Virus record (IMG/VR): IMGVR_UViG_3300036979_000302
Location: 1-40,779 of that record
Length of the DNA: 40,779 bases
Reading direction: 5' to 3' (one strand)
Source of the DNA: a virus
The translations under genes were made by a program, and so were the position numbers. The notes under the pieces were generated by a model. That model had not been told where the DNA came from. It did not search any database and saw only the letters and a list, made by a program, of their open reading frames with translations. Shown here piece after piece: positions 3,880 to 38,913 of the stretch. Within the stretch, counting starts at the first letter, position 1. Each line of letters starts with the position of its first letter.

Positions 3880-4230
3880 CTAACGATTTCCGACAATTCC
3901 AATTGCCTTCACCGCGTTAAAATCAAAATATGCTACCAGGATGTGAGTACTGCGATCCCACGCAAACTCATCTGTCAACGCGCCGGGTCTAAATCCACCA
4001 AACGCCATGTCAAAACGCATTCTGTTGCGACCGCTAATCACCGATTGCGGTGCACCCAACAGCTCGATACATTGGGCAGCAGTCATGCCCAGCGTGACAT
4101 CGAGAGGCACAACTTTTCCGCTCGCGTCATGACGGTAGCTATGGTACGTCGCGACCATCTCTGCGCTCTCGCGGAGAGGGATTGAACATCCCACACACAA
4201 CATCGACACAAAGAGCAGCACCTTACGCAT
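3880..4230 (-). CDS. Predicted lipoprotein with BamE/SmpA-like domain
   Basis: The start chosen is ATG 4230 (MRKVLLFVSMLCVGCS), preceded by AAAGGACG; the frame is open 7 codons further. A short basic and hydrophobic signal ends in a lipobox-like VGC, so the mature protein would be lipidated. Residues about 45-65 read LDVTLGMTAAQCIELLGAP, the pattern of the SmpA/OmlA (BamE) fold, and the protein ends in beta-rich text (THILVAYFDFNAV). It overlaps the 3' end of the integrase gene by 8 nt, so it is probably expressed from the prophage. An envelope lipoprotein beside an integrase is a typical place for a lysogenic conversion or superinfection-exclusion gene; that role is inference. Confidence 0.7.
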   Translation of the reverse strand: MRKVLLFVSMLCVGCSIPLRESAEMVATYHSYRHDASGKVVPLDVTLGMTAAQCIELLGAPQSVISGRNRMRFDMAFGGFRPGALTDEFAWDRSTHILVAYFDFNAVKAIGIVGNR

Positions 4231-5251
4231 GGTTCGTCCTTTCTGCGTCAATACGATTTATCGCCTGCTTCGTCTCCGATGCGTTCACGCGTCGGTAGTA
4301 TTTCATCATCGTCCGCACGTCTTGGTGATCGGACAGCGCCATCGCTACCTCAAGATCCACGTGCACGCGTCGCGCCAGCGTCACAAACGTGCGCCGCAGA
4401 TCGTGCTGCTTTATGCCGTCGACGCCAGCGTCCTTGCGTATGCGTGACCAAATACGGCGTGCATAGGTGCCGAAAATCTTGCCCGCCGCCTGGACGTGAT
4501 CGCCCAACCACTTGTACATCGACGGCGCTATCGGCTGGTGGTACTCACGTCGGCTCTTAAGCATCGACGCTGGTATGCGCCACATGCACGCGGGGAGATC
4601 AACGTGCGGCCACTCAACGTGCGACGCCAGGTGCGAGCGGAATCCGGTGGTAAGAAGGCACAGCACATACCCATATGCTCGCTCGGATACGCGCGCCGCG
4701 GCGGCAAGTAGTCGTTCGTCTTCACCGGCGTCGAGCACGCGCGGCGTAGACATCGGCTCAGGCATGCGTAGTCGGCGCGATACGGGACTGCGCGTGATCA
4801 TACAGCGCTCGACACACCACGAGAAAAACAGCCGCAAGAGGCGCAGATCGAGGTTCACGGTTCTCGGCGCTTTGCCGTCGCATACCTTGCGCATGATGTA
4901 CTGCGTTACCACGTCTTCCGTTATCGCGGACACCGACAATTGGCCGTACTCTGCAGTCCACCGCCTGGCGGCCGATCGCAGGCACTCGCCGTATCTGCGA
5001 CTGTGTCCTATCGATGTCTGCTCTACCCACATGCGAATCGCCTCGGCCGTCAGCACGTTCGACGGTGCCGGCGTTCTTGTCCCGGTGATCACCTCAAGCT
5101 GCCAGCGGTGCACGATGGCCTCTGCCAGTTCTCGATCTGCAAAGCCGGTGCATTTCCAAGTGTTGTGCGCGCCGTCCACCACGCGCACGTAATATTTTTC
5201 ACTCAACCGCCCCCTCCACGTCATCCGTCTGATATCGCCATATCGCGTCAT
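4223..5251 (-). CDS. int: Tyrosine recombinase (phage integrase)
   Basis: Integrates the circular phage genome into the host chromosome. The start is ATG 5251, preceded by AGGGAG at correct spacing; a GTG two codons upstream is also possible. The 342 residues have an N-terminal arm-binding part, a SAM-like core-binding domain (about 65-155) and a catalytic domain. Catalytic residues visible: Arg205 (TTGFRSHL), Lys232 (SMLKSRREY), His283 and Arg286 (HDLRR), His309 (LSDHQDVRTMMKYY) and Tyr318 or 319. The usual Glu after Arg I is replaced by Leu-Ala. The gene points away from the Cro-like operon, and attP is probably nearby but no core could be identified. Confidence 0.95.
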   Translation of the reverse strand: MTRYGDIRRMTWRGRLSEKYYVRVVDGAHNTWKCTGFADRELAEAIVHRWQLEVITGTRTPAPSNVLTAEAIRMWVEQTSIGHSRRYGECLRSAARRWTAEYGQLSVSAITEDVVTQYIMRKVCDGKAPRTVNLDLRLLRLFFSWCVERCMITRSPVSRRLRMPEPMSTPRVLDAGEDERLLAAAARVSERAYGYVLCLLTTGFRSHLASHVEWPHVDLPACMWRIPASMLKSRREYHQPIAPSMYKWLGDHVQAAGKIFGTYARRIWSRIRKDAGVDGIKQHDLRRTFVTLARRVHVDLEVAMALSDHQDVRTMMKYYRRVNASETKQAINRIDAERTNHA

Positions 5252-5360
5252 GCGCACTCCCTCCCTCGTCTAGACGCTGATCACACGGTGACTGCCATCC
5301 ACCATACCGGAAAACGCATTCACACTCAATATATTTTTTACTTTTAACCACGTATTGCTG

Positions 5361-7592: not shown

Positions 7593-8024
7593 ATGGAAAA
7601 GAAAGCAATAGATATCGCGGCGTGGGTTGGGTTTATCGGTTTCTGCGCGCTCGGCGTCGCGGCGGCGTATGCGTACACGACGCTGCCGAACGCGGCCGCA
7701 GCTGACGACGGCGCGATCAGCGGTAAGGCGAGCTGGTACTCGCGCGCTGAGTGCGTGAGCAAGTCAAACCCGAATGCTCTCATGGCGAACGGGAAACCGC
7801 TCAATGACGCGGCTCTTACATGTGCCATGTGGGATGTACCGTTCGGCACACGCGTCGTGGTGCGCAGCGGCGATCGCTCGGTGACGTGCACCGTAACCGA
7901 TCGCGGCCCGGCCAAGCGGCTCGTGCGCAGCGGACGCGTCATCGATCTGTCGCGTGCGGCATTCCAGCGCATCGGCGATCTGCGTGCCGGGTTGATCCCG
8001 GTGACGGTTGAGGTGCAGCAATGA
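7593..8024 (+). CDS. RlpA-like (double-psi beta-barrel) cell-wall enzyme with N-terminal anchor
   Basis: The 143-residue protein has a hydrophobic segment at about 8-30 (IAAWVGFIGFCALGVAAAYA), acting as signal anchor or uncleaved signal, followed by an RlpA-like double-psi barrel. Conserved blocks: GKASWYS, ALMANGKPLN, WDVPFGTRVVV, CTVTDRGPAKR, VIDLSRAAF and LRAGLIPVTVEV. RlpA proteins are lytic transglycosylases acting on glycan strands. No conventional lysozyme or amidase was found in the genome, so this may be the lysis enzyme, exported by its own N-terminal segment. Its place in the early region is odd for an endolysin. AGGAGAG and AAGGAAAG lie upstream as ribosome binding sites. Confidence 0.85.
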   Translation: MEKKAIDIAAWVGFIGFCALGVAAAYAYTTLPNAAAADDGAISGKASWYSRAECVSKSNPNALMANGKPLNDAALTCAMWDVPFGTRVVVRSGDRSVTCTVTDRGPAKRLVRSGRVIDLSRAAFQRIGDLRAGLIPVTVEVQQ

Positions 8025-8176
8025 CACGCGAGAACCGCAAGGACATGAGCGCCATGTGGGCGCGACTCGACAACTTGGAAGAGATCGTGAACATCATCGT
8101 GGGGAAGCTCGAGATCGATCTGGTGGCGGAAGCCGTAACTGATGAGGAACTCGTTGATAGGGAAAGCGAGGTGTAG
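8021..8176 (+). CDS. Small acidic protein, 51 aa
   Basis: ATG 8021 overlaps the RlpA-like stop (ATGA) and TAG lies at 8174-8176. The product is helical and acidic towards the end (MWARLDNLEEIVNIIVGKL, then VTDEELVDRESEV). The function is unknown. Its coupling to the wall enzyme suggests it could be a partner or modulator. Confidence 0.65.
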   Translation: MTRENRKDMSAMWARLDNLEEIVNIIVGKLEIDLVAEAVTDEELVDRESEV

Positions 8177-8178
8177 TG

Positions 8179-8736
8179 ATGCAGAACGTCGTGATGGTTA
8201 TTTGTCTGTGCATGGGTGGAGCGTTGCTGTACATGAACCGCGACGAGCTTGCGCGGTTCATTCCGCCGCAGGTGCGCGAGAGCGAGCGCGTGCAATACGT
8301 AGAGCGTGAGTCCGCGCCGCAGTCGATGACGTGGCTGGAGGAGTGTCGCCTGTACTCGATCCAGTCCACCGCTGATAGCCGTGCGCGGCGGCAATACGAG
8401 TGGGAGGCGACTCAGGGAATGCGGCCGACCGGCATCCAGGATATCGACGACGCGCAGGTAGCGTCCACGCGGCTGGACATGATGGATCGCGGTTTCTGGC
8501 CGAAGCGCTGGCGCGACAAGAGCGACGAGGGCCATCGCTGGACGGAAGGCAGACGAGATAAGTCTGGGCCGAGCGAGGAGCGCGTCGGTGCGTCTGAGTC
8601 GAAGTCGCCGGCGTGGGCTGGCAAGCCGCTCGGCGTCGGAGAGGACGAACGCGAAGAGCCGCAGCGTGGTAGCGGCGTCAGTACGGGCAAGGCAATGAGT
8701 AGGTTTCTGTTTGGCACGCAGGACGAGAGGTTGTAA
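8179..8736 (+). CDS. Hypothetical single-pass membrane protein
   Basis: The start used is ATG 8179; a GTG lies one codon earlier. Residues 2-19 form a membrane segment (QNVVMVICLCMGGALLYM), followed by a long charged region with no recognised fold (WLEECRLYSIQST, FWPKRWRDKSDEGHRW) and a low-complexity Ser/Glu/Gly-rich tail. Membrane anchor plus basic, Trp-containing tail suggests an inner-membrane protein with a cytoplasmic or periplasmic domain. It follows the wall enzyme gene, so an accessory lysis or exclusion role is possible but unproven. Confidence 0.7.
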   Translation: MQNVVMVICLCMGGALLYMNRDELARFIPPQVRESERVQYVERESAPQSMTWLEECRLYSIQSTADSRARRQYEWEATQGMRPTGIQDIDDAQVASTRLDMMDRGFWPKRWRDKSDEGHRWTEGRRDKSGPSEERVGASESKSPAWAGKPLGVGEDEREEPQRGSGVSTGKAMSRFLFGTQDERL

Positions 8737-10486: not shown

Positions 10487-11410
10487 ATGAGCGCGACAAA
10501 GAAGTTGTATCCATGGTTCTGGTTTTACCCGGCTGACTTTCTGTCGTCACAAAAAGTGCGCGTGATGAACTCGTCAGAAGTCGGCGCGTACTTCACGCTG
10601 CTGTGCTACGCGTGGATGAATGACCCACCAGCGCATCTTCCAAACGACGAGGACCACCTGCGAGAGCTGTGCAGGATGACGCCGGACGAGTGGAGCGCTG
10701 CACGCAAGCATATCATGGCGTGCTGGAAAGAGACCGATGACGGCAAGTTCGTCTACAACCAACGGTTGCTATTGGTGCGGGAGGATGCCGAAGCGTTCAG
10801 CTCACGGCAAAAGGCACGCGTAGACAAGCGCTGGAAATACCGGATCGATACCGGATCGATACCGGATTATACCGGATCGATACCGGATTATACCGGATCG
10901 ATACCGGATTATACCGGATCGATACCGGATTATACCAGAACACATTCATCTTCACATTCACATACAGACAAGGCAGACACCGCACCCGGTGATGCTAGCG
11001 TTCTAGGCGCGGCACCCGCCATAGAAGACCCGGCGTGTGTGGTGTCGAGCGGCCTTGCCATGGAATTCGTGACGGCATGGAACTCTCTCGGCGCACCCTT
11101 CGCGCACCTCAAGAGCCTAGGACCGCGCCAGAACGCATTAGCGGCTTGCTGGCGCGACGCGACGTTCCGCGAGTCTTGGGACGCAGCCTTGCGCCGCATG
11201 GCCGCCAGCGCGTTCTGTAGTGGCTGTGGCGATCGCGGCTGGGTAGCTGATGTTGGCTGGTTTCTCAAGCCAACGACGGTACACGAGCTGATGGAAGGCA
11301 AGTACGACAACCGATCACCGGCCGTGGCCGTGGCGTCGGTGAAGCCAATTTCTGGCCGGCGCAGCGAGATGAACGAAAGCGACAAATGGAAGGACGTGGT
11401 AGGCGCATGA
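10487..11410 (+). CDS. DUF1376-type replication initiator (O-like)
   Basis: The 307-residue protein begins YPWFWFYPADFLSS, with SSEVGAYFTLLCYAW and DEDHLRELCRMTPDEW, the DUF1376 signature of phage replication proteins with a winged-helix fold. Residues about 117-149 contain the heptapeptide TGSIPDY repeated four times, encoded by the iterons at 10837-10940. The C-terminal half includes a CSGCGDRGW patch and a helical region that could contact the loader. The helicase loader gene overlaps its stop, as with lambda O and P. Its probable role is binding the repeats in its own gene to open the origin. Confidence 0.85.
   Translation: MSATKKLYPWFWFYPADFLSSQKVRVMNSSEVGAYFTLLCYAWMNDPPAHLPNDEDHLRELCRMTPDEWSAARKHIMACWKETDDGKFVYNQRLLLVREDAEAFSSRQKARVDKRWKYRIDTGSIPDYTGSIPDYTGSIPDYTGSIPDYTRTHSSSHSHTDKADTAPGDASVLGAAPAIEDPACVVSSGLAMEFVTAWNSLGAPFAHLKSLGPRQNALAACWRDATFRESWDAALRRMAASAFCSGCGDRGWVADVGWFLKPTTVHELMEGKYDNRSPAVAVASVKPISGRRSEMNESDKWKDVVGA
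10837..10940. repeat. Iteron array, probable replication origin
   Basis: Nine tandem copies of ATACCGGAT start at 10837, 10848, 10859, 10869, 10880, 10890, 10901, 10911 and 10922, with a degenerate tenth at 10932. Spacing alternates between 11 and 10 bases, about one helical turn, so a protein would bind them on one face. The period keeps the reading frame (21 bp for two copies). The following 10936-10975 stretch is AT-rich and asymmetric (A and C on this strand), a possible melting region. The layout matches lambda ori inside gene O. Confidence 0.85.
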
Positions 11411-12084
11411 ACACGCAGAAACCAAGAGACGACGACGGGATTGAGCACAGCGTTGGTGACGCGATAAATATATTCCGTTTGATGCGAGACAACGCGCCGG
11501 CCGCGGCGCCAGAGTCGTCCGAGCCACCGACAGCTGAGGACTACGCAACGACGTGCATCGAGCGCCAGCAGCGCTACCAAGTTCCGATAGCGTACGTCGG
11601 TGCGCTCGTGAGCGACTTTCTCCGGACGGACATCGATCCGAGCTGCGATGCGGCGTGGCTCTGGCAGCGTCCGATGTGCGTCGCACGCGACGTGTTTATC
11701 TCTGGCGGCAACGGCGGCGGCAAGACGCACATGGCGGCGGCGCTCAGCGGCGAGTGGGGATTGACGTGGCGTGTCGCGTCGGACGTGCTGCGCAAGGTAC
11801 GCGGATCGTACAACGGCGGCGACGAGACGGAAGACATGATCGTCAGTGACTTGCAGCGCCGCCGGGTGCTGCTCATCGACGACATCTCGGCGATCGCCAA
11901 GACAGAGCACGGCGTGAGCTTGCTGCTCGCTATCTTGTCCGGCCGCATCGACTGGCAGCGTCCGACGGTTGTCACGTCGTATCTCGGACTGCGTGCGCTT
12001 GACGGCATCGACAGCTCGATAGCGTCACGGCTCGCGTCGTTCTCGCAGATACGACTCGTGTGTAGCGATAGACGTTTACGGTAA
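11407..12084 (+). CDS. DnaC/IstB-like helicase-loader ATPase
   Basis: The ATG at 11407 overlaps the initiator stop (ATGA). The 225-residue AAA+ protein has Walker A GGNGGGKTH at about 100-108 and Walker B VLLIDDISA at about 154-162. Sensor-type text follows (TVVTSYLGLRAL, IASRLASFSQIRLVCSDRRLR, with the arginine-rich end typical of DnaC-like loaders). It would place the host replicative helicase at the iteron origin, because the phage encodes no helicase. Confidence 0.9.
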   Translation: MNTQKPRDDDGIEHSVGDAINIFRLMRDNAPAAAPESSEPPTAEDYATTCIERQQRYQVPIAYVGALVSDFLRTDIDPSCDAAWLWQRPMCVARDVFISGGNGGGKTHMAAALSGEWGLTWRVASDVLRKVRGSYNGGDETEDMIVSDLQRRRVLLIDDISAIAKTEHGVSLLLAILSGRIDWQRPTVVTSYLGLRALDGIDSSIASRLASFSQIRLVCSDRRLR

Positions 12085-12537: not shown

Positions 12538-12543
12538 GCGGTG

Positions 12544-12897
12544 ATGCACATGCGCATGGAACTGCCATATCCACCGGCAAGCGGGAACCACCAGCACGGC
12601 ATGCGTCGTGACGGCAAGCGCTTCACGCTGCCGGTGATCGCGGCGTACCGTTCGTCGGTGTACATGGCGTTCCTTGCGGCTCGCGGCGTACGAGTATCCG
12701 GCGCGGTGCGAGTCATGATGGACTTGCACCCGCCGGACGCTCGACGACGCGACAGTGACAACGTCGAGAAAGTCGTGTTCGACGCACTCACGCGCGCTGG
12801 CGTTATCGACGACGACTCGTGCATCCGCACGCACACGACGACATGGTGCGCGCCGGTGCGTGGCGGACGTGTGGTTGTAGCCGTAGAGGTGCTGTAA
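12544..12897 (+). CDS. rusA: RusA-like Holliday junction resolvase
   Basis: It begins with a family-typical MRMELPYPPASGNHQ (starts at 12544, 12550 and 12556 are all possible). The catalytic region reads VMMDLHPPDARRRDSDNVEK followed by FDALTRAGVIDDDS, with the clustered aspartates that bind metal in RusA. The length of about 115-118 residues is normal. It would resolve branched recombination and replication intermediates before packaging. It follows ssb by only a few bases and has no strong ribosome binding site, so it is probably translated by coupling. Confidence 0.92.
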   Translation: MHMRMELPYPPASGNHQHGMRRDGKRFTLPVIAAYRSSVYMAFLAARGVRVSGAVRVMMDLHPPDARRRDSDNVEKVVFDALTRAGVIDDDSCIRTHTTTWCAPVRGGRVVVAVEVL

Positions 12898-12898
12898 C

Positions 12899-13222
12899 GT
12901 GACGACGTTTCGAGTGCTGTGGCATCACCACGTGGACTACGTGTGCACGGAGCTACGGCGGGTGTCGTGGTGGATGGAAGGTTCGTTTCGGCGGCTGCGT
13001 GTGGTTTACCACGTGGACACACTCGAGGCGTGGATCGAGATCCGCCTACCTGGTGGCAACTGGAAGTCTATCGAATGTCGGCGCTGGGCGGCGCAAGGGA
13101 AGGTAGTGTTACCCGCGGATGCGGAGCTGTTAGCACGCGCTTGGTTGGCGGAAGAGTCGGCCAAACGGTTTCCGGCAGCCGTGTACGTCGTTGACCTGGT
13201 GCATTTGCACAACTCAAAATGA
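12899..13222 (+). CDS. Hypothetical protein, 107 aa
   Basis: A GTG start at 12899 directly after the rusA stop is the only reasonable start. The product is rich in Trp, Arg and Val with alternating beta-like text (FRRLRVVYHVDTLEAWIEIR) and a final VYVVDLVHLH. No motif is recognised. Its place between rusA and a small membrane protein gives no clear clue to function. Confidence 0.65.
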   Translation: MTTFRVLWHHHVDYVCTELRRVSWWMEGSFRRLRVVYHVDTLEAWIEIRLPGGNWKSIECRRWAAQGKVVLPADAELLARAWLAEESAKRFPAAVYVVDLVHLHNSK

Positions 13223-13236
13223 CAAGGAGGTGACGA

Positions 13237-13461
13237 GTGTTCTGGTGGATCGTAGGAATCTGGGGCGCGTTGGTGGCCGGGACGGTGGCTGGCGTGGCGA
13301 TCTGCGGGCTGCTGACGGCGGCGAAGGTGGCAGACTTGCACGCGGAACTGGACGAGGCGCGGAACACCATCGACGGTTTGCGACACTACGTGCGCGCGTC
13401 GGCAGAGGAAGAGCGGAAGACCGTCGCGCGCCAAATCAGACGGACGGCGTGGGAAGCATGA
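13237..13461 (+). CDS. Small membrane protein with coiled-coil tail
   Basis: GTG 13237 follows AAGGAGG at good spacing. Residues 2-29 form a hydrophobic segment (WWIVGIWGALVAGTVAGVAI), followed by a charged helix (LHAELDEARNTIDGLRHYV, EEERKTVARQIRR). The N-in/C-out layout and size resemble phage membrane-anchored accessory proteins, including i-spanin-like ones, but it sits far from the holin-like gene. Its end overlaps the next start (ATGA). Confidence 0.7.
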   Translation: MFWWIVGIWGALVAGTVAGVAICGLLTAAKVADLHAELDEARNTIDGLRHYVRASAEEERKTVARQIRRTAWEA

Positions 13462-14168
13462 ACATGAGCATGACGACAACAGTCCCATCGATCAGCGAAC
13501 ACTGGGGGCGGCACTTCGGCGCGGATATCTTCTGCTGCGGTTTCGGCTCGTCACTGCTCGACTTCGACTGGGGCATGCTCGAGGGACGCACCGTGATCGC
13601 GTGCAACGGCGCGATCACCAAAATCCCGCACGCGTCTTACCACCTATGGGCAGACGGGTGCCTTTACAAAAACTACTGGCAAATCCCGTATGGAGAGGAC
13701 ACGACGATTGTGCTGCAGCCGTCGGGGACGCGTCGCATGCTCACCGCCTACGCATGGGCGCATCACAACAAGTTGCGCCAGTTCTCGAGGTGTAAGGAAC
13801 CTGGATTCTCGCACATCACACGCGAGTCGGACGAGTTGTGGGTACGCACGACAGTAATGACGAGTGCGATCATGCTCGCCTGGAAGCTCGGGGCGGCACG
13901 CGTCTATCTCCTTGGGGTAGACGGATACGGTCCACTCGATGCACCGTACTACGCCGATGGTACGCGGTGCCCGGCGGGCTTTGGTGCCGTCACGGCGGTC
14001 GACGACGGCGCCATCGGCATGCAGGGACGGCACCACGAATGGGTGCGGGACATGCGCGAACTGGCCGCGTATCTCAGGTGCCAGCCCACCGCGCCGACGG
14101 TCATCAATCTGAACCCGCGGTCCACGATCGACGCCTGGCCGAAGACAGCGCGCAAGGAGGTGCTGTGA
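13458..14168 (+). CDS. DUF115/GT42-like Rossmann protein (possible glycosyltransferase)
   Basis: The 236-residue protein starts at ATG 13458, overlapping the previous stop. An N-terminal nucleotide-binding-like motif reads ADIFCCGFGSSLLDFD, then VIACNGAITKIPHASYHLWAD, and later TSAIMLAWKLGAARVYLLGV followed by DGYG. This is the pattern of the DUF115 / 6-hydroxymethylpterin pyrophosphokinase-like and sialyltransferase-like (GT42) proteins found in phage accessory regions. It is coupled by a GTGA overlap to a methyltransferase gene, so the two probably modify one substrate, such as a surface glycan, nucleotide or small molecule. The exact chemistry is not evident. Confidence 0.65.
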   Translation: MNMSMTTTVPSISEHWGRHFGADIFCCGFGSSLLDFDWGMLEGRTVIACNGAITKIPHASYHLWADGCLYKNYWQIPYGEDTTIVLQPSGTRRMLTAYAWAHHNKLRQFSRCKEPGFSHITRESDELWVRTTVMTSAIMLAWKLGAARVYLLGVDGYGPLDAPYYADGTRCPAGFGAVTAVDDGAIGMQGRHHEWVRDMRELAAYLRCQPTAPTVINLNPRSTIDAWPKTARKEVL

Positions 14169-14776
14169 CGCACGACGAGCTGGTGAAACAGTACACCCAC
14201 ATGCACGAGCACTCGCACTACGGGAACTGCCCGAACGACAGCGCTCGAGCTATGGCGGCGGCACAACTGCTGCTCGAGCGCATGCAGAAGGGCGAGCAGG
14301 TGCTCGACTGCTCTGCCGGCCGCGGGCATTTCCTCGAGATCATGCGGCGCCGCGGCATGCAGTGCTCAGCCACCGAGGCCGATCCATGCCTGCTCGGACG
14401 CGAGCTCGCCGAGTACGAGACGTGGCAGCTGCGCTACAACGAGCTCGACAAGCTGGCGCCGCGGCAATGGGACGCGGTGGTGAGTATCGAGGTGCTCGAG
14501 CACCTGCTCAGCGAGGAAGAGGCGCGTGCGGCGCTGCGTGCGCTGGCCGAATTGACGCGCAAGTGGTTGTTGATCTCGGTCGGGCTCTTTGAGTCGTCGT
14601 GGCACGGGATCGACGGCGAGATCGTGAAACTTCACTTCGTGGTCAAGAGTTGGCTGTGGTGGCTGGATCAGATATCCGAGGTGGCTACGGTGCTCTACGA
14701 GAATGTGGGGAATGGATCGTTGATGGTGCTGGCAAAGGTAATCGACACGCGCGAGGGCGAGAAGAAGCACGCATGA
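14165..14776 (+). CDS. Class I SAM-dependent methyltransferase
   Basis: GTG 14165 follows AAGGAGG and overlaps the previous stop. Motif I is VLDCSAGRG at about 46-54, the acidic end of strand 2 is SATEADP, and motif IV-like text is WDAVVSIEVLEHLLSEEEA, the methyltransferase_11/23 pattern. Residues after about 150 (SSWHGIDGEIVKLHFVVKSW) form the substrate part. No NPPY-type DNA motif is present, so it is not an obvious DNA adenine methylase. Its partner gene upstream suggests a small-molecule or glycan substrate. Confidence 0.82.
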   Translation: MTHDELVKQYTHMHEHSHYGNCPNDSARAMAAAQLLLERMQKGEQVLDCSAGRGHFLEIMRRRGMQCSATEADPCLLGRELAEYETWQLRYNELDKLAPRQWDAVVSIEVLEHLLSEEEARAALRALAELTRKWLLISVGLFESSWHGIDGEIVKLHFVVKSWLWWLDQISEVATVLYENVGNGSLMVLAKVIDTREGEKKHA

Positions 14777-14961
14777 GTGACACGAAGGTTTATCTCGGCG
14801 ACGGATTATACGCGGACTTCGACGGGAATATGGTGATCCTCACTGCCGAGGACGGCACGAAGATCACGAACGTGGGCTATCTGGAGCCTGCGGTGCTGGC
14901 GGCGTTGTTGCGAACGCTGGCACTGTGGGGGCTGACGCAGAAGGAGGACGCGCATGAGTGA
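14773..14961 (+). CDS. Small hypothetical protein, 62 aa
   Basis: ATG 14773 overlaps the methyltransferase stop (ATGA). The product has beta-rich text (KVYLGDGLYADFDGNMVILT, then DGTKITNVGYLEP) followed by a helix (AVLAALLRTLALWGLTQKED). It could fold as a small barrel plus helix. The function is unknown. It overlaps the next gene by 8 nt. Confidence 0.75.
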   Translation: MSDTKVYLGDGLYADFDGNMVILTAEDGTKITNVGYLEPAVLAALLRTLALWGLTQKEDAHE

Positions 14962-15406
14962 CAATACGAAATGGTACTACGACAAAACAGACCATATGCG
15001 GTGTGGCGAGAACTACGAAGTGTACCACTTCTTACGTGGCGATGACCCAAAAGAGTGGACGTTACAGGAAGTCACCGTGTATCTTGGCAACATAGAGGCA
15101 GAGAACGTGCGGATGCACGGTGAGAACGACAAACTGCGAGCCGAGAACGAGCGTCAGGCGAATGTGCTCGACAACTGCGCACACGAGTGCGCCGAGGAGA
15201 AGATACGGCTGGAGTCGATCATATCTGACATGTGCAATGAGGCCCGAGAGTTGCGCGCCGAGGTGGCGCGGCTGCGTGCGGCGATGCAGGACAGCATCGA
15301 TGACCTCACCACATACGCAGAGGGGAAGGCATCGTTTGCGTTGGAGGATGTTGTGTTCTACGTACGCGCCGCCCTCGGGGCGGGGAAGGAGGAGATCGAT
15401 GCCTAA
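14954..15406 (+). CDS. Coiled-coil protein with Cys-containing ends, 150 aa
   Basis: AGGAGG precedes ATG 14954. The N-terminal 50 residues contain aromatic text (WYYDKTDHMRCGENYEVYHF). Residues about 50-120 are a long coiled coil (GENDKLRAENERQANVLDN, MCNEARELRAEVARLRAA). Cysteines occur at HMRC, NCAHEC and DMCN. It opens the run of small Cys-containing genes that continues to 17.9 kb. The function is unknown. Confidence 0.75.
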   Translation: MSDNTKWYYDKTDHMRCGENYEVYHFLRGDDPKEWTLQEVTVYLGNIEAENVRMHGENDKLRAENERQANVLDNCAHECAEEKIRLESIISDMCNEARELRAEVARLRAAMQDSIDDLTTYAEGKASFALEDVVFYVRAALGAGKEEIDA

Positions 15407-15599
15407 GAAGATTAGCGCCTGCCGCACGGAGGTGCTGGTGGTGTACCACTGCGACTTCAGGGACAAGTGCGACTACTTCATCCGTAACTACGCTGGGACT
15501 CTTTGCGACTATCTGCATGTAGAGGATAACACTTGTACCCTTCGCGCCGCACAGAGGGCGGGCCGCAAAGCGGCGAGGCAGAGAGGAGCGGCGAAGTGA
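15399..15599 (+). CDS. Cys-cluster small protein, 66 aa
   Basis: The frame runs from ATG 15399 (after AAGGAGG) to TGA 15597-15599. Cysteines at 8, 18, 24, 36 and 46 (YHCDFRDKCDYF, TLCDYLH, NTCTL) suggest a zinc- or iron-sulfur-stabilised fold, followed by a basic tail (RAGRKAARQRGAAK) able to bind nucleic acid. It is one of a set of short Cys-rich genes in this operon. No family is recognised. Confidence 0.75.
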   Translation: MPKKISACRTEVLVVYHCDFRDKCDYFIRNYAGTLCDYLHVEDNTCTLRAAQRAGRKAARQRGAAK

Positions 15600-15730
15600 G
15601 CGAGTTCTTGATCATCCTATCAAAGCTTTTTATCGGCGCGGTTGCTGGAATGGTGCTGACCGTAGCAGTCATTGTATTTTATTTGTGCTTTTCAAAATGC
15701 ATGGACAGGATATACAGGAGGAAGGCATGA
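15596..15730 (+). CDS. Small single-pass membrane protein, 44 aa
   Basis: GTG 15596 overlaps the previous stop (GTGA), and the end overlaps the next start (ATGA). Nearly the whole chain is hydrophobic (IILSKLFIGAVAGMVLTVAV, then IVFYLCF), with a basic end (RIYRRKA). The coupling on both sides supports translation. It could be a pinholin- or antiholin-like protein or a membrane anchor for the neighbouring Cys proteins. Confidence 0.65.
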   Translation: MSEFLIILSKLFIGAVAGMVLTVAVIVFYLCFSKCMDRIYRRKA

Positions 15731-16035
15731 GCACCGGAGATCATCCCATGTACTGCCCGTGCCCCAAAGGCAACAGGGATCAGTGCATCTACCACGATCA
15801 TGGGAAATGTGAGTACGTTAAGCCCGAGACCGAAATAGCAGAAGAAACCGATCGCTACGAGGCGCAGATCGCGGCGCAGTCCGCTGAGATCGAGCGGCTG
15901 CACGAGCACATCTACGCCGCATTTGGGATCCTTGAAGATACGCAGAAGCATTCCGATACCGAAGACGATCCGGGCGTTGGCGCACGGATAAGGTACTGGA
16001 TGCACGGAACCAAAAAAGAGATGCGAGCGCTGTAA
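15727..16035 (+). CDS. CxCx7Cx7C zinc-ribbon-like protein, 102 aa
   Basis: ATG 15727 follows ACAGGAGG. Residues 9-31 contain cysteines at 10, 12, 20 and 28 (MYCPCPKGNRDQC, then HGKCEYVKPET). The same spacing, and Ile after the third Cys, recur in the product of 16391-17221. A helical region follows (AQIAAQSAEIERLHEHIY). Four cysteines in this pattern usually hold one metal ion. The role is unknown; it may bind nucleic acid or protein. Confidence 0.78.
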   Translation: MSTGDHPMYCPCPKGNRDQCIYHDHGKCEYVKPETEIAEETDRYEAQIAAQSAEIERLHEHIYAAFGILEDTQKHSDTEDDPGVGARIRYWMHGTKKEMRAL

Positions 16036-16038
16036 TGG

Positions 16039-16209
16039 ATGGAATGCACTCCCACAACGACAGAGGCGCGGATCGGACTGCTGGAGAACTCCGTCGCCTC
16101 GCTCAAGCTCTGCGTGCCGCCACTGGAGGTGGAGAGCGTGCGGTGCGACTGTAATAAGACATCGTTCGTGGGACACGCAGAGAAGGCACAAACCAGGAGC
16201 GACGAATGA
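16039..16209 (+). CDS. Small protein sharing a motif with the 276-aa neighbour, 56 aa
   Basis: The frame runs from ATG 16039 to TGA 16207-16209, whose ATGA overlaps the next start. Its LLENSVASLKLCVPPLEVE closely matches KIETAVASLKLCTPPPEPE near the end of the 16391-17221 product. The C-terminus adds CDC and other polar residues. It looks like a partial duplication of the downstream coiled-coil gene that has kept its reading frame. A competing frame from ATG 16035 has no such similarity and was set aside. Confidence 0.6.
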   Translation: MECTPTTTEARIGLLENSVASLKLCVPPLEVESVRCDCNKTSFVGHAEKAQTRSDE

Positions 16210-16394
16210 GGGACACTAATCATTGCCGCCGCGAGACATGGTATCGCTGTTCCACCGCAGAGCGTGCCAATGATTGCATTTACAGAGAGCAATACGAAGA
16301 TAACGATCTCCTGTCCTGTAAGTACCGGATGGGCAATCAATGTTTGTCGTTAAAGGCGAAGAGGGCTTTGTTGAGCAAAAGGAGGAAGGCATGA
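16206..16394 (+). CDS. Cys-rich small protein, 62 aa
   Basis: ATG 16206 overlaps the previous stop and its own end overlaps the next start. Cysteines lie at 7, 15, 24, 38 and 46 (WYRCSTAERANDCIYRE, LLSCKYRMGNQCLS). The Cys-Ile-Tyr step and the final G-x-x-C echo the CxCx7Cx7C proteins on both sides. A basic end follows (KAKRALLSKRRKA). It is probably a metal-binding member of the same small family. Confidence 0.75.
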   Translation: MRDTNHCRRETWYRCSTAERANDCIYREQYEDNDLLSCKYRMGNQCLSLKAKRALLSKRRKA

Positions 16395-17221
16395 GCAAAG
16401 AATACATAGAACTGTCACAGCGCATCGAGCGGCTTGAGAAAGCAGCGAAGGAGCGTCACTCTGACGCGCAGCTCGATGCGCTCGTAGACATAGTGCGCGA
16501 GTCCAATACCCCACGTCCACATCCGACAGCAGAAGAGATGCGAGCCAAGCCCGCGCCCGAGGCGAACCGTAGCCTCTGCGCGTGCCCCATCGGAGCGGAG
16601 GAGCGGTGCATCCATCTCAATCAAGGACGTTGCGAGCACAGCAAGCCTGACACCGGCGCGCACGACGAGGAGGAGGTGACGCAGATGGGGATGGAGGAGC
16701 GGATCGCGAAGCTGGAGGAGACCGCTGACTCTCCATCGCTTCGGGGATGCAAACTGTGGGCGGACTGCACCACGCTGCTGCAACGCACCGCCGCGTTGGA
16801 GAAGATCACCTGCATCAAGGGGAACGAAAACGCGAACGCCATCGCGTCTGCCACCGCGAGGGTAGCGGCGAACGAGGTTCGCATCCTCGCGCTGGAGGAA
16901 AGACTCCAGACGGTATGGATCGCTCCGATAAACGCGCTGAAGGAGCGATGCGATGCGCTGGAGAGTATCGTCAAGGGCGACGACATCGCCACATCCTTTG
17001 TGAAGGATGCATGGCGCAAAGATATCAATGAGCGCATCGAGAAGATAGAGACAGCCGTCGCCTCGCTCAAGCTCTGCACCCCGCCGCCGGAGCCGGAAGT
17101 AGACGCGCGTGCAGATGAGCTCAAGTCAGCGCTCGCCGAGCTGCCCGAGAAGTTGCGAAAGGTCATCGCCGAAGAGCTGCCGCGGAGAGTTGTCAACCGA
17201 CGTATGGATCGGCGGGGGTGA
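16391..17221 (+). CDS. Long coiled-coil protein with CxCx7Cx7C insert, 276 aa
   Basis: ATG 16391 follows AAGGAGG. The chain consists of coiled-coil segments (IELSQRIERLEKAAKERH; RIAKLEETADSPS; LALEERLQTVW; INERIEKIETAVASLK) broken by a metal-site-like region at residues 62-88 with Cys 63, 65, 73 and 81. This has the same spacing as in the 15727 product, and both continue K-P-[DE]-T. The C-terminus is Pro/Glu-rich and then basic (EELPRRVVNRRMDRRG). It looks like an elongated oligomer displaying metal-binding knobs. Function unknown. Confidence 0.78.
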   Translation: MSKEYIELSQRIERLEKAAKERHSDAQLDALVDIVRESNTPRPHPTAEEMRAKPAPEANRSLCACPIGAEERCIHLNQGRCEHSKPDTGAHDEEEVTQMGMEERIAKLEETADSPSLRGCKLWADCTTLLQRTAALEKITCIKGNENANAIASATARVAANEVRILALEERLQTVWIAPINALKERCDALESIVKGDDIATSFVKDAWRKDINERIEKIETAVASLKLCTPPPEPEVDARADELKSALAELPEKLRKVIAEELPRRVVNRRMDRRG

Positions 17222-17225
17222 GCAG

Positions 17226-17576
17226 ATGAGCGACATTGGCAAGAAGCACGACGACGGCAAGCCCCGCATGGACCTGCTGCCACCGGACGCGATTTTCGCG
17301 GTGGCCGACGTGTTCACCTACGGCGCCGAACTGTACGGTGCGCGCGATTGGGAGAAGGGCCTGCCCTACGGACGCCTCTTCGCGGCTATTCTGCGACATC
17401 TTTTCGCCTGGTGGATGCGCGAAGAGGTCGATCGCGAGTCCGGCAAGTCGCACCTCGCGCATGCGGCCACCGGGGTACTCATGCTGCTCGCGATGTCACG
17501 ACGCCGACAGGATCTCGACGATAGGCCGAAAAATGTTTGTGCCGGCGTACCCATTGATACAAGTACGCAAAATTGA
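17226..17576 (+). CDS. MazZ/DUF5664-like dATP/dGTP pyrophosphohydrolase
   Basis: The 116-residue protein carries the family pattern: GKPRMDLLPPDAIFAVADVF, then YGAELYGARDWEKGLPYG, ILRHLFAWW, EVDRESGKSHLAHAATGVLM. The Glu, His and Asp residues in these blocks form the metal site of all-alpha NTP pyrophosphohydrolases. The family hydrolyses dGTP or dATP to the monophosphate and pyrophosphate; in aminoadenine (Z) phages the MazZ member supplies dGMP to PurZ. No PurZ-like gene or phage polymerase is present here, so a general dNTP-pool role is more likely. Confidence 0.87.
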   Translation: MSDIGKKHDDGKPRMDLLPPDAIFAVADVFTYGAELYGARDWEKGLPYGRLFAAILRHLFAWWMREEVDRESGKSHLAHAATGVLMLLAMSRRRQDLDDRPKNVCAGVPIDTSTQN

Positions 17577-17582
17577 TAATAT
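17554..17582 (+). promoter_or_regulatory. Sigma70-like internal promoter
   Basis: TTGATA (17554-17559) and TAATAT (17577-17582) are 17 bases apart. The element lies over the last codons of the pyrophosphohydrolase gene and would start transcription near 17589, giving a leader of about 110 bases before the gene at 17698. The two last plus-strand genes therefore may be expressed separately from the operon. Confidence 0.55.
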
Positions 17583-17584
17583 CC

Positions 17585-17656
17585 CCCGCCGCCGGGTTGC
17601 CGTTATGCTTGAAACCACGGAGCACTTGTTCTGCACTGAAGGCCGATGGCGGCGGG
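17585..17656 (+). other. Inverted repeat in the leader before 17698
   Basis: CCCGCCGCC (17585-17593) can pair with GGCGGCGGG (17648-17656), closing a 54-base loop. If transcription starts near 17589 the left arm is partly missing, so the pairing would matter mainly for readthrough transcripts from the upstream operon. This may distinguish the two messages; it is an inference from position only. Confidence 0.35.
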
Positions 17657-17697
17657 AATTTATTGCAAAAACTAGTAGCGAAACACGAGAGGTGAGA

Positions 17698-17949
17698 ATG
17701 CAAATTCACGAGACGTTTTCGAAAAAACCAGCATGGTTACTGTGCCCGCTACAGCGCCCACAGGATAACGACGTGGCGCTGTGCATGGCAGCATGGCAAG
17801 ATAGCCGCGCGTGTACGTTCGGCGCTTGCGGGGTGTACCGCGAGCTTGCCGGCGTGCTGAACGCACGAGACATTCTGTTGCGTCGTGTCGCCGAACTCGA
17901 GAATGATGCGATCGCGGCAGAGCATAGAAAGGTAGAAGCTGATGAGTAA
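17698..17949 (+). CDS. Cys-cluster protein, 83 aa
   Basis: ATG 17698 lies 5 bases after a GAGAGGTGA ribosome binding site; the frame upstream is open but is a shadow. Cysteines at WLLCPLQ, ALCMAAWQ, RACTFGACGVY give a four-Cys pattern like that of the other small proteins of the operon, followed by a helix (AGVLNARDILLRRVAELEND). It is the last recognised member of the Cys group. Function unknown. Confidence 0.72.
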   Translation: MQIHETFSKKPAWLLCPLQRPQDNDVALCMAAWQDSRACTFGACGVYRELAGVLNARDILLRRVAELENDAIAAEHRKVEADE

Positions 17950-18277
17950 AGAGCGCGAAGTCGTTAAAAAGCTGAGCCAGTTGATCGCCCGCGTAGAAAC
18001 CGCTGAAAAACTACCGATGCCCGACGAGGAGACGTTCCGAAGTAGAATTGTCCTCGGCTACGGCGTGACGGGGAGCGCCTTGGGGCCGGTGCATGTGGCC
18101 CTGCAGGAATGGCTTGCCACCGCCGGATCAGACTTGATCTGGAACGGTTTCCGTCAGTGGCTGGACTCGCGGAAGGTTGAGCTGTCGCACGAGATCGCCG
18201 TGACCAAGGACGAGCTACAGACGGAGTGGAAAGCCCTCGAGGCAGAAGCGGTCGTCGAGGACGTGAATCCAGTGTAG
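17942..18277 (+). CDS. Hypothetical protein, 111 aa
   Basis: It overlaps the previous gene by 8 nt and has a clear ATG. Text is helical at both ends (KEREVVKKLSQLIARVETAE; DELQTEWKALEAEAVVEDV) with a middle part LGYGVTGSALGPVHVALQEW. No family is recognised. It is the last gene of the plus-strand module, before the convergent junction with the late minus-strand genes. Confidence 0.75.
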   Translation: MSKEREVVKKLSQLIARVETAEKLPMPDEETFRSRIVLGYGVTGSALGPVHVALQEWLATAGSDLIWNGFRQWLDSRKVELSHEIAVTKDELQTEWKALEAEAVVEDVNPV

Positions 18278-18302: not shown

Positions 18303-18533
18303 TCACGAGGTGATCATGTCGTGTCCGCCTTGCACGGGAGAGCGTTCGCGCATGGGGATGTTGCAGACCCCGCAGTGTAGCCGGTCGCGGCGATCACCGT
18401 GGAAGATGGGCTCGCAGTGCTCAAGGTCAGGCATTGTGGCATCGTCGGACATCTGCAGGCGCAGCACGCACGCGGCGTGGTAGTAGATCGTGTAGCCGTT
18501 CTGCACGGCCTTGTAGCCCACAATGTCTAGCAC
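18303..18533 (-). CDS. Small Cys/His protein, possible zinc finger
   Basis: The start used is GTG 18533 (reading LDIVGYKAVQNG after it); an ATG at 18587 is also in frame but lies inside the hairpin. The chain contains YHAACVLRLQM, HCEPIFHGDRRDR and LHCGVCNIPM, so several Cys and His residues are spaced as in treble-clef or ribbon metal sites. It is the most distal gene of the long minus-strand operon, 25 bases from the convergent plus-strand end. Only 60% of this call rests on the metal-site text; expression is unproven. Confidence 0.5.
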   Translation of the reverse strand: MLDIVGYKAVQNGYTIYYHAACVLRLQMSDDATMPDLEHCEPIFHGDRRDRLHCGVCNIPMRERSPVQGGHDMITS

Positions 18534-18566
18534 GCCTGCGATTGTACCAAGTCGCGCCGCGGAAGG

Positions 18567-18620
18567 CAAGATGGGCGGCCGGCGCATGGGTGCGCGCCAG
18601 CCGCCACAAAGAAAGAAGGA
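18567..18620 (-). terminator. Conserved hairpin element, copy B
   Basis: On the minus strand the arms 18605-18594 and 18585-18574 pair over 12 positions, one of them a G-U wobble, around an 8-base loop. The flanks TTTGTG before and ATCTTGC after match copy A at 7492-7543. It starts about 37 bases after the stop of the holin-like gene. The single arm difference from copy A keeps pairing in the minus-strand transcript but not in the opposite transcript, which supports an RNA role in this direction. Confidence 0.65.
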
Positions 18621-37608: not shown

Positions 37609-38913
37609 CTAGGACGTAGTGTCGTCGATCAGGCAGATAGAGTTCGGGTTGCGTGCTCCGAAATCGCAGGAGTACGTCGCCCTGATCTCGATCGAGTTCT
37701 GCGCCCAGGCGTTGCCGCCCGTGTCCGTCGCAGCGAGCTCGACACCGCCCCACTCGGCCAGCAGCATGTCCGTCATACGAGCGAGAACGAGATTCGCCAG
37801 ATTCGTCCCGCTTCCCTTCGTCTCGGCAATCGAGACGTTGGTGCTCAGGTGCACCGGAATCCCGCGGATTTGCTTGAGCGGTGCCATCTGGATGTTGCCA
37901 GGGACTCCGCTCTGCGGGTTATAGAGGAAGTTGTTCGCCTCGGACGCGACGATGAGTTGCGTGATGTTATGCCACGTCCGCGGGTGCATGATGAACGCGC
38001 GCCCGTCCTGGGGAACGTTGTCCAGATCGAGTTCCAGGATCATGTCGTCGAGAAGCGCCTGCGTGATCACGCCACCATTCGTGCCGATGTCCACGTTATT
38101 GATCGATGCCATGTTGGCCATTCCGGTGGGACACGGGGAAGCGGTCGTCGCCAGGCCTTCAATGCACGCCTCGTCGACTGCGGCCGCCAGCGCGTTCGCC
38201 ATGTCCTCTCGGACGATCTGCTCGGCCGCTCCGGCCGAGGTGTTAACGAGGAACTTGCTGAGCTGCACGCGGTGCGCCGCGAACTTCGGGCTCAAGGAAA
38301 GCTGGCCGGGGGTCGGCGCGCTTTCAGTGATCGACCCGTTCTGCGCGAGCCAGTACACCGTACCGCCTGCCGTCGCCTTCGGGATCAGTACCGGGGCGCC
38401 GGTGCACGGCAGGATGCGCATGCCGGCCTGACGGCATACCATCGCCGAACGATACACGGCGATGAACTCCTCGGGCAGAAACTCTGTGCCAACCCAGTAT
38501 CCGCCGGCAGAGCCGCTCGCCCATGCGATCGCCTTCTCTTGCAGACCCGCGAACTTCTCCGCGGTCTTCTGCATGCAGCGATACTCGTAAGGCGCGATCG
38601 CCGGGTTGCGCTGAACCTGCGCTTTGAGGAACCGGATGATCGAGAACTTGTCGGGAGGCGGGAGGTCCGACGGCGACTTGCTCTGCGCCTCACGGATCCG
38701 CTGCTCAAACAGCTTCTCCATCGGGTCACACGCCGTGCCCGGCAACGTAGGCTGGGCGGAATCCTCGGCAGTCGGCGGAATCAGCGCCTTGCCGTTTTTC
38801 TCGATCGCCGTGACGCGCTCGCGAATCTTCGCGTTATCCTCGATCATCGGCGCAGTAGCCTTGGCCACGGCGTCCGTGACCAGTTGTCCAAACTCGTCTT
38901 TGGTGAACTTCAT
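37609..38913 (-). CDS. Major capsid protein (HK97 fold), 434 aa
   Basis: The N-terminal ~110 residues are charged and coiled-coil-like, a delta/scaffold-type domain removed by the protease. The capsid part has the HK97-type sequence pattern (ASGSAGGYWVGTEFLPEEFI, TVYWLAQNGSITESAPTPGQ, LSPKFAAHRVQLSKFLVNTS, IVREDMANALAAAVDEACIE, RAFIMHPRTWHNITQLI). It forms the shell. It is followed by a strong hairpin and preceded by the protease. Confidence 0.94.
   Translation of the reverse strand: MKFTKDEFGQLVTDAVAKATAPMIEDNAKIRERVTAIEKNGKALIPPTAEDSAQPTLPGTACDPMEKLFEQRIREAQSKSPSDLPPPDKFSIIRFLKAQVQRNPAIAPYEYRCMQKTAEKFAGLQEKAIAWASGSAGGYWVGTEFLPEEFIAVYRSAMVCRQAGMRILPCTGAPVLIPKATAGGTVYWLAQNGSITESAPTPGQLSLSPKFAAHRVQLSKFLVNTSAGAAEQIVREDMANALAAAVDEACIEGLATTASPCPTGMANMASINNVDIGTNGGVITQALLDDMILELDLDNVPQDGRAFIMHPRTWHNITQLIVASEANNFLYNPQSGVPGNIQMAPLKQIRGIPVHLSTNVSIAETKGSGTNLANLVLARMTDMLLAEWGGVELAATDTGGNAWAQNSIEIRATYSCDFGARNPNSICLIDDTTS

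Follow-up and report, generated by a model that had tools for sequence, protein, structure and literature searches.

In phage lambda (NC_001416), the nin region lies between P and Q and comprises ren and the genes NinB-NinI, which overlap one another. Two of its products, NinD and NinF, are micro-proteins of 56-57 aa with five Cys each (about 9% Cys), and NinC is a PAPS reductase. The region can be deleted without loss of plaque formation (PMC10695390). Two further systems offer points of comparison, namely Ea22, an early coiled-coil protein with variable parts that combines high diversity with a preserved pro-lysogenic function (PMC7093339, PMC10834534), and TraR, whose homologues occur in phages, lambda Orf73 included; both TraR and Orf73 target RNA polymerase, and both have the motifs CxxC-17-CxxC and DxxDxA (PMC9239242). 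Some CxxC-type micro-proteins bind no zinc, and the prediction of zinc binding from Cys motifs or by AlphaFold2 is unreliable (PMC11241148); the literature on phage zinc micro-proteins provided analogies only.

Here we set beside these systems a chain of small overlapping genes in an uncultured temperate phage. Our favored reading, to which we assign a probability of roughly 0.55, is that the distal early operon is a nin-like accessory region whose overlapping genes encode individually acting early modulators rather than the parts of one complex. The proteins are new, but they are arranged in a way that is ordinary for lambda-like early operons.

Position of the gene chain in the virus record

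The window, by which we mean the whole stretch of DNA analyzed, is the entire IMG/VR virus record IMGVR_UViG_3300036979_000302 (40,779 bases, classed as linear). It encodes a temperate siphophage, with a head protease and a lambda J-type tail protein in addition to the landmark genes listed in Table 1, and no DNA-level similarity was found between it and the phages of the annotated collection. Within the plus-strand early operon the chain occupies the distal end, downstream of the O/P-like and RusA-like genes and co-oriented with them, and this operon converges on the minus-strand late genes. The gene that ends the operon (17942) gave no Q-like match in Pfam or PHROGs, and the late genes lie on the opposite strand. 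Two other viruses entered the comparison: L008, a 7.6-kb sequence closely related to the window that stops short of the chain region, and IMGVR_UViG_3300031834_000898 (loci L003 and L006; hereafter the relative), in which the window capsid protein was not found.

Several observations were made around the chain and elsewhere in the record. Two genes sit upstream of the chain at 13191-14776, one glycosyltransferase-like (sialyltransferase PHROG) and one methyltransferase-like, and a 94-aa ORF on the minus strand (18303-18587), ending in HCEPIFHGDRRDRLHCGVC, looks like a small zinc-ribbon-type phage protein. Within positions 1-1750, a long plus-strand ORF (170-1363) sits beside the terminase gene and its frame is well conserved in L008; a clear minus-strand portal gene was not recognized there. 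A small protein that we take to be RlpA-like from our own reading of its sequence (7593-8024) adjoins a conserved protein (8176-8736; ~80% identity across 147 aa in the relative) in all three viruses (window 7593-8736, L006:7208-8154, and L008:5181-6272), with the order inverted in L006.

Table 1. Landmark genes, chain genes, and modules of the window, with the observation attached to each (L003 and L006 are loci of the relative)
Feature	Position	Strand	Observation
Terminase large subunit	1759-2994	minus	
Integrase	4226-5257	minus	
Replication initiator and helicase loader, O/P-like	10487-12081	plus	
RusA-type (RusA-like) resolvase	12541-12894	plus	
Acidic coiled-coil protein, 150 aa; first chain gene common to the relative	14954-15406	plus	C-terminal 56 aa match L003:6319-6600, E 3e-17
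Cys micro-protein, 66 aa, 5 Cys, predicted basic C-terminal helix	15399-15599	plus	orthologue in the relative
Single-span membrane peptide, 44 aa, GTG start	15596-15730	plus	4-bp overlap on either side; translation
CxCx7Cx7C protein; 5' part of diverged tandem copy of 16391-17221	15727-16035	plus	sequence comparison
SLKLC module; 3' part of tandem copy, same frame, past in-frame TAA	16039-16209	plus	repeat comparison
Cys micro-protein, 62 aa, 5 Cys, basic tail	16206-16394	plus	8.1% Cys
Modular coiled-coil protein with CxCx7Cx7C, 276 aa	16391-17221	plus	homologue L003:7698-8822
Module S1 of coiled-coil gene	16862-16962	plus	80% DNA identity to L006:10338-10438
Module S2 of coiled-coil gene	16958-17034	plus	87% DNA identity to L006:10260-10336
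dATP/dGTP diphosphohydrolase N-terminal domain protein	17226-17576	plus	PF18909 E 3e-31; phrog_801 E 2e-37
Small Cys4 protein, 83 aa, helical tail	17698-17949	plus	no relative found
Last early gene, 111 aa, no Cys	17942-18277	plus	8-bp overlap with 17698
Major capsid protein	37612-38913	minus	

Composition of the overlapping chain

The sequence-only reading had described at least five overlapping genes for short Cys-patterned proteins, none of them recognizable. The five ORFs concerned (15399, 15727, 16206, 16391, and 17698, each named by its first position) are real, with ATG starts and, in most, a recognizable RBS, and the chain is mostly held together by start-to-stop overlaps of 4-8 bp. 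The overlaps are not continuous, however, since 17698 starts 121 bp past 17576, outside the chain on its 5' side, and 16039 and 17226 begin 3-4 bp after the preceding stop. The membrane peptide gene 15596 differs from the window in base composition (GC 44% versus 60%), and its product matched no family in searches that included Pfam and PHROGs. The description as unrecognizable held for the Cys proteins, which matched nothing in Pfam, PHROGs, NCBIfam, or PADLOC, but not for 17226 (17226-17573), which carries the diphosphohydrolase domain.

Against a background of 1.4% derived from large genes, Cys was enriched in 15399 (7.6%, P 0.002), 16206 (8.1%, P 0.002), 17698 (4.8%, P 0.03), 16391 (3.3%, P 0.015), and 15727 (3.9%, P 0.05). 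The motif CxxC is absent from all five proteins and, because these knuckles are missing, metal binding is less certain than had been assumed. In shuffle tests, the similarity of 16206 and 17698 to 15399 and to the CxCx7Cx7C pair did not rise above that of shuffled sequences, and the two were therefore rejected as homologues of 15399. Searches of phage and plasmid collections with the Cys proteins by tblastn gave nothing or chance matches, and searches of solved structures and Rfam returned nothing significant.

The small size of these proteins, their helical tails, and their content of at least four Cys invite comparison with small Cys4 phage proteins with helices of the TraR/DksA kind, Orf73 among them (PMC9239242), which would make them modulators of RNA polymerase or transcription with a helix entering the secondary channel. 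This is highly improbable, given that the C4 zinc finger CxxC-17-CxxC and the N-terminal DxxDxA are missing from all five and that the TraR/DksA family gave no Pfam match at E up to 1.

Duplication and splitting of the CxCx7Cx7C gene

The claim that CxCx7Cx7C appears twice with identical spacing, each time before K-P-[DE]-T, was confirmed. The motif lies at 15754-15810 and 16577-16633, in both cases followed by x3-K-P-[ED]-T, and these are its only occurrences across the six frames of the window; in 60 dinucleotide-shuffled windows the mean was 0.2, and two occurrences were reached in 1 of the 60. What the pair represents is apparent from the DNA around it. Positions 15716-15733 and 16380-16397, which contain the RBS and start, agree at 18 of 18 bases. 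The alignment of the Cys motifs spans 27 residues, 12 of them identical, and the SLKLC tail, a block of 66 nt at 16068, recurs at 17032 (74% identity). In a single reading frame, 15727-16209 has one interruption, an in-frame TAA at 16033-16035 that separates the Cys part from the SLKLC part. Genes 15727 and 16039 are therefore one diverged, nonsense-split copy of 16391-17221, and the two CxCx7Cx7C copies go back to one tandem duplication and are not independent subunits.

Such a split raises the alternative that 15596, 15727, and 16039 are decaying remnants of the duplication, carried as passengers, with 15399, 16391, and perhaps 16206 as the only functional genes. This alternative, tentative and rather unlikely, draws on the TAA, on the lack of a convincing RBS before 16039, on the weak constraint on the module shared by 16039 and 16391 (dN 0.31 versus dS 0.43), and on the failure to find counterparts in the relative. 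It is countered by 15727 itself, which keeps the Cys, Gly, and KPxT positions at 39% identity and retains both its RBS and the 4-bp overlap with the preceding gene. In an AlphaFold2 model of 15727 (mean pLDDT 76), a long helix comes after a small hairpin.

Conservation of the 15399 family in a second virus

Homologues of three chain genes (14954, 15399, and 16391) occur in the relative, where their order is kept and their ends overlap. The orthologue of 15399 (L003:7510-7698) shares 49% identity and retains all five Cys, and the comparison of the two gave dN 0.41 and dS 2.5, the latter near saturation; 15399 is a real family under purifying selection. Beside this orthologue lies a paralogue of 15399 (L003:7332-7523), whose score was reached by 0 of 1,000 shuffles. 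The gene immediately upstream of these two Cys micro-proteins belongs to the PAPS-reductase family. The neighborhood is thus conserved for a portion of the set in one other virus. The 16391 homologue there lacks CxCx7Cx7C at that spacing. Counterparts of 15596, 16206, and 17698 were not found in the relative.

Scans of the viral and genome collections with several queries and patterns identified only the relative as a carrier of these genes. A scan of viral contigs for CxCx7Cx7Cx3KP[DE]T returned one match (L005), rejected as low-complexity and out of frame, and a stricter motif scan returned none. The Cys4 spacing of 15399 recovered the known relative only among viral contigs; its three matches among genome contigs were rejected, none of them lying in a small Cys protein gene. 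The 16391 alignment gave no match in genome contigs. In the relative, a further small Cys-cluster ORF on the minus strand (L006:960-1127; CSSKCHFYDLWACSIGCDRDGSC) has no significant similarity to those of the window. The model of 15399, whose confidence is low (61), has three strands plus a basic helix, and fold searches with the 15399 and 15727 models found nothing at E 0.001 or better. The dGTPase inhibitor T7 Gp1.2 appeared at an E of about 0.4 and was set aside because of the low confidence of the 15399 model.

These results bear directly on the proposal that the Cys, membrane, and coiled-coil proteins form one multi-part metal-binding assembly for anti-defense or host takeover. The start-stop overlaps and the conserved order of the 14954, 15399, and 16391 homologues would fit such an assembly, which we nevertheless regard as very unlikely: the shared motif is a local, stop-split duplicate, its spacing is not kept in the relative, three of the genes have no counterpart found there, and PADLOC defense models gave only noise-level coiled-coil matches, in a library whose coverage leaves anti-defense proteins outside. 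The single-assembly and anti-defense readings have no positive support.

A smaller unit is less improbable, though still unlikely, namely a functional pair of a 15399-type Cys micro-protein and the adjacent modular coiled coil, inherited and duplicated together. A 4-bp overlap joins the two genes in the relative (L003:7510-7701 and L003:7698-8825), and both coiled-coil copies of the window have a Cys micro-gene ahead of them (15399 before 15727, and 16206 before 16391). Set against this, 16206 is not demonstrably homologous to 15399, the membrane ORF separates 15399 from 15727, and just two viruses are known.

Module order in the coiled-coil gene

Comparison of the coiled-coil genes of the two viruses revealed that their modules occur in different orders. 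The window reads S1 (101 nt), S2 (77 nt), and SLKLC, and the relative reads S2, S1, and SLKLC, with the SLKLC block occurring four times over the window and the relative together. Synonymous divergence is 0.95 in S1 versus 0.28 in S2 (small counts), which suggests different histories for the two modules. S1 and S2 meet at a shared CTGGA(G); this Leu-Glu codon pair is frequent in the 16391 coiled coil, and recombination may have taken place at this point.

Within S2, a 47-nt block (16988-17034; L006:10290-10336) has a single mismatch between the viruses, versus ~20% divergence in the adjacent S1, and may reflect a recent exchange or a constraint at the DNA or RNA level. The block contains an 11-12 bp hairpin that looked like an operator; 128 sites in the window are equally stable, so no operator is claimed.

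The exchange of modules could be extended to a bolder, quite improbable proposal, an undescribed two-protein phage unit in which a basic-helix Cys micro-protein works with an oligomeric coiled coil, its short DNA cassettes being duplicated, split, and re-ordered between phages at repeated coiled-coil codons so that target specificity changes fast under arms-race pressure. What retains interest beyond the nin-like reading is this possible two-gene unit of Cys micro-protein and coiled coil with re-ordered modules. In any event, the locus clearly illustrates how a coiled-coil accessory gene can diversify: by being duplicated, by being split by a nonsense codon, and by having short DNA modules change places.

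Comparison with Ea22 and the nin region

The early coiled coil of the window resembles Ea22 in having a central coiled coil and parts that vary between phages, as indicated by the long helix in the model of the duplicate and by the swapped modules. It differs from Ea22/Ead in its operon position, in its Cys4 motif, and in the swapped order of its modules, and no Ead/Ea22 family model was listed for 14954 or 16391 in Pfam or PHROGs at E up to 1.

Under the nin-like reading, the chain would consist of translationally linked, fast-turning-over genes for small Cys-cluster and modular coiled-coil proteins, linked because they share one transcript and not because they build one complex. The Cys micro-proteins would fold around a structural metal, probably zinc, and the Arg/Lys-rich C-terminal helix of the 15399 family may serve to contact either nucleic acid or an acidic surface of the host. 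The coiled-coil proteins would oligomerize, with exchangeable modules setting the binding partner by analogy with lambda Ea22. Each protein would act singly and be individually dispensable, modulating host or phage processes such as gene expression, replication, recombination, or the choice between lysis and lysogeny. The partial, reshuffled conservation between the two viruses fits independent accessory genes of this kind. The retained order of 14954, 15399, and 16391 in the relative speaks against it and could reflect a functional unit, and the role as early modulators is one that we infer from position. If the 15399 family does bind a metal and a host target, it would represent a new family of early phage modulators.

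The likeness to the lambda nin region extends to several features. The window chain likewise lies behind the replication genes and co-oriented with them in the early operon, it forms a chain of start-stop overlaps that includes Cys-rich micro-proteins (56-60 aa in lambda), and the NinC of lambda has a parallel in the PAPS-reductase-family gene of the relative. The two regions differ in that Q follows nin in lambda, whereas Q was not identified in the window, and in that the window instead has a modular coiled-coil gene, a membrane peptide, and a dGTP diphosphohydrolase domain gene, and no CxxC motifs. The Cys proteins had no PHROG or Pfam match to Nin proteins, and pairwise comparisons with NinD and NinF were negative. 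The chain is thus laid out in the manner of nin and composed of new sequence families, so that the resemblance is one of design and not of family membership. This analogy suggests that an uncultured temperate phage shares the nin layout, in which overlapping Cys-rich micro-genes follow the replication genes, and fills it with unrelated sequences.
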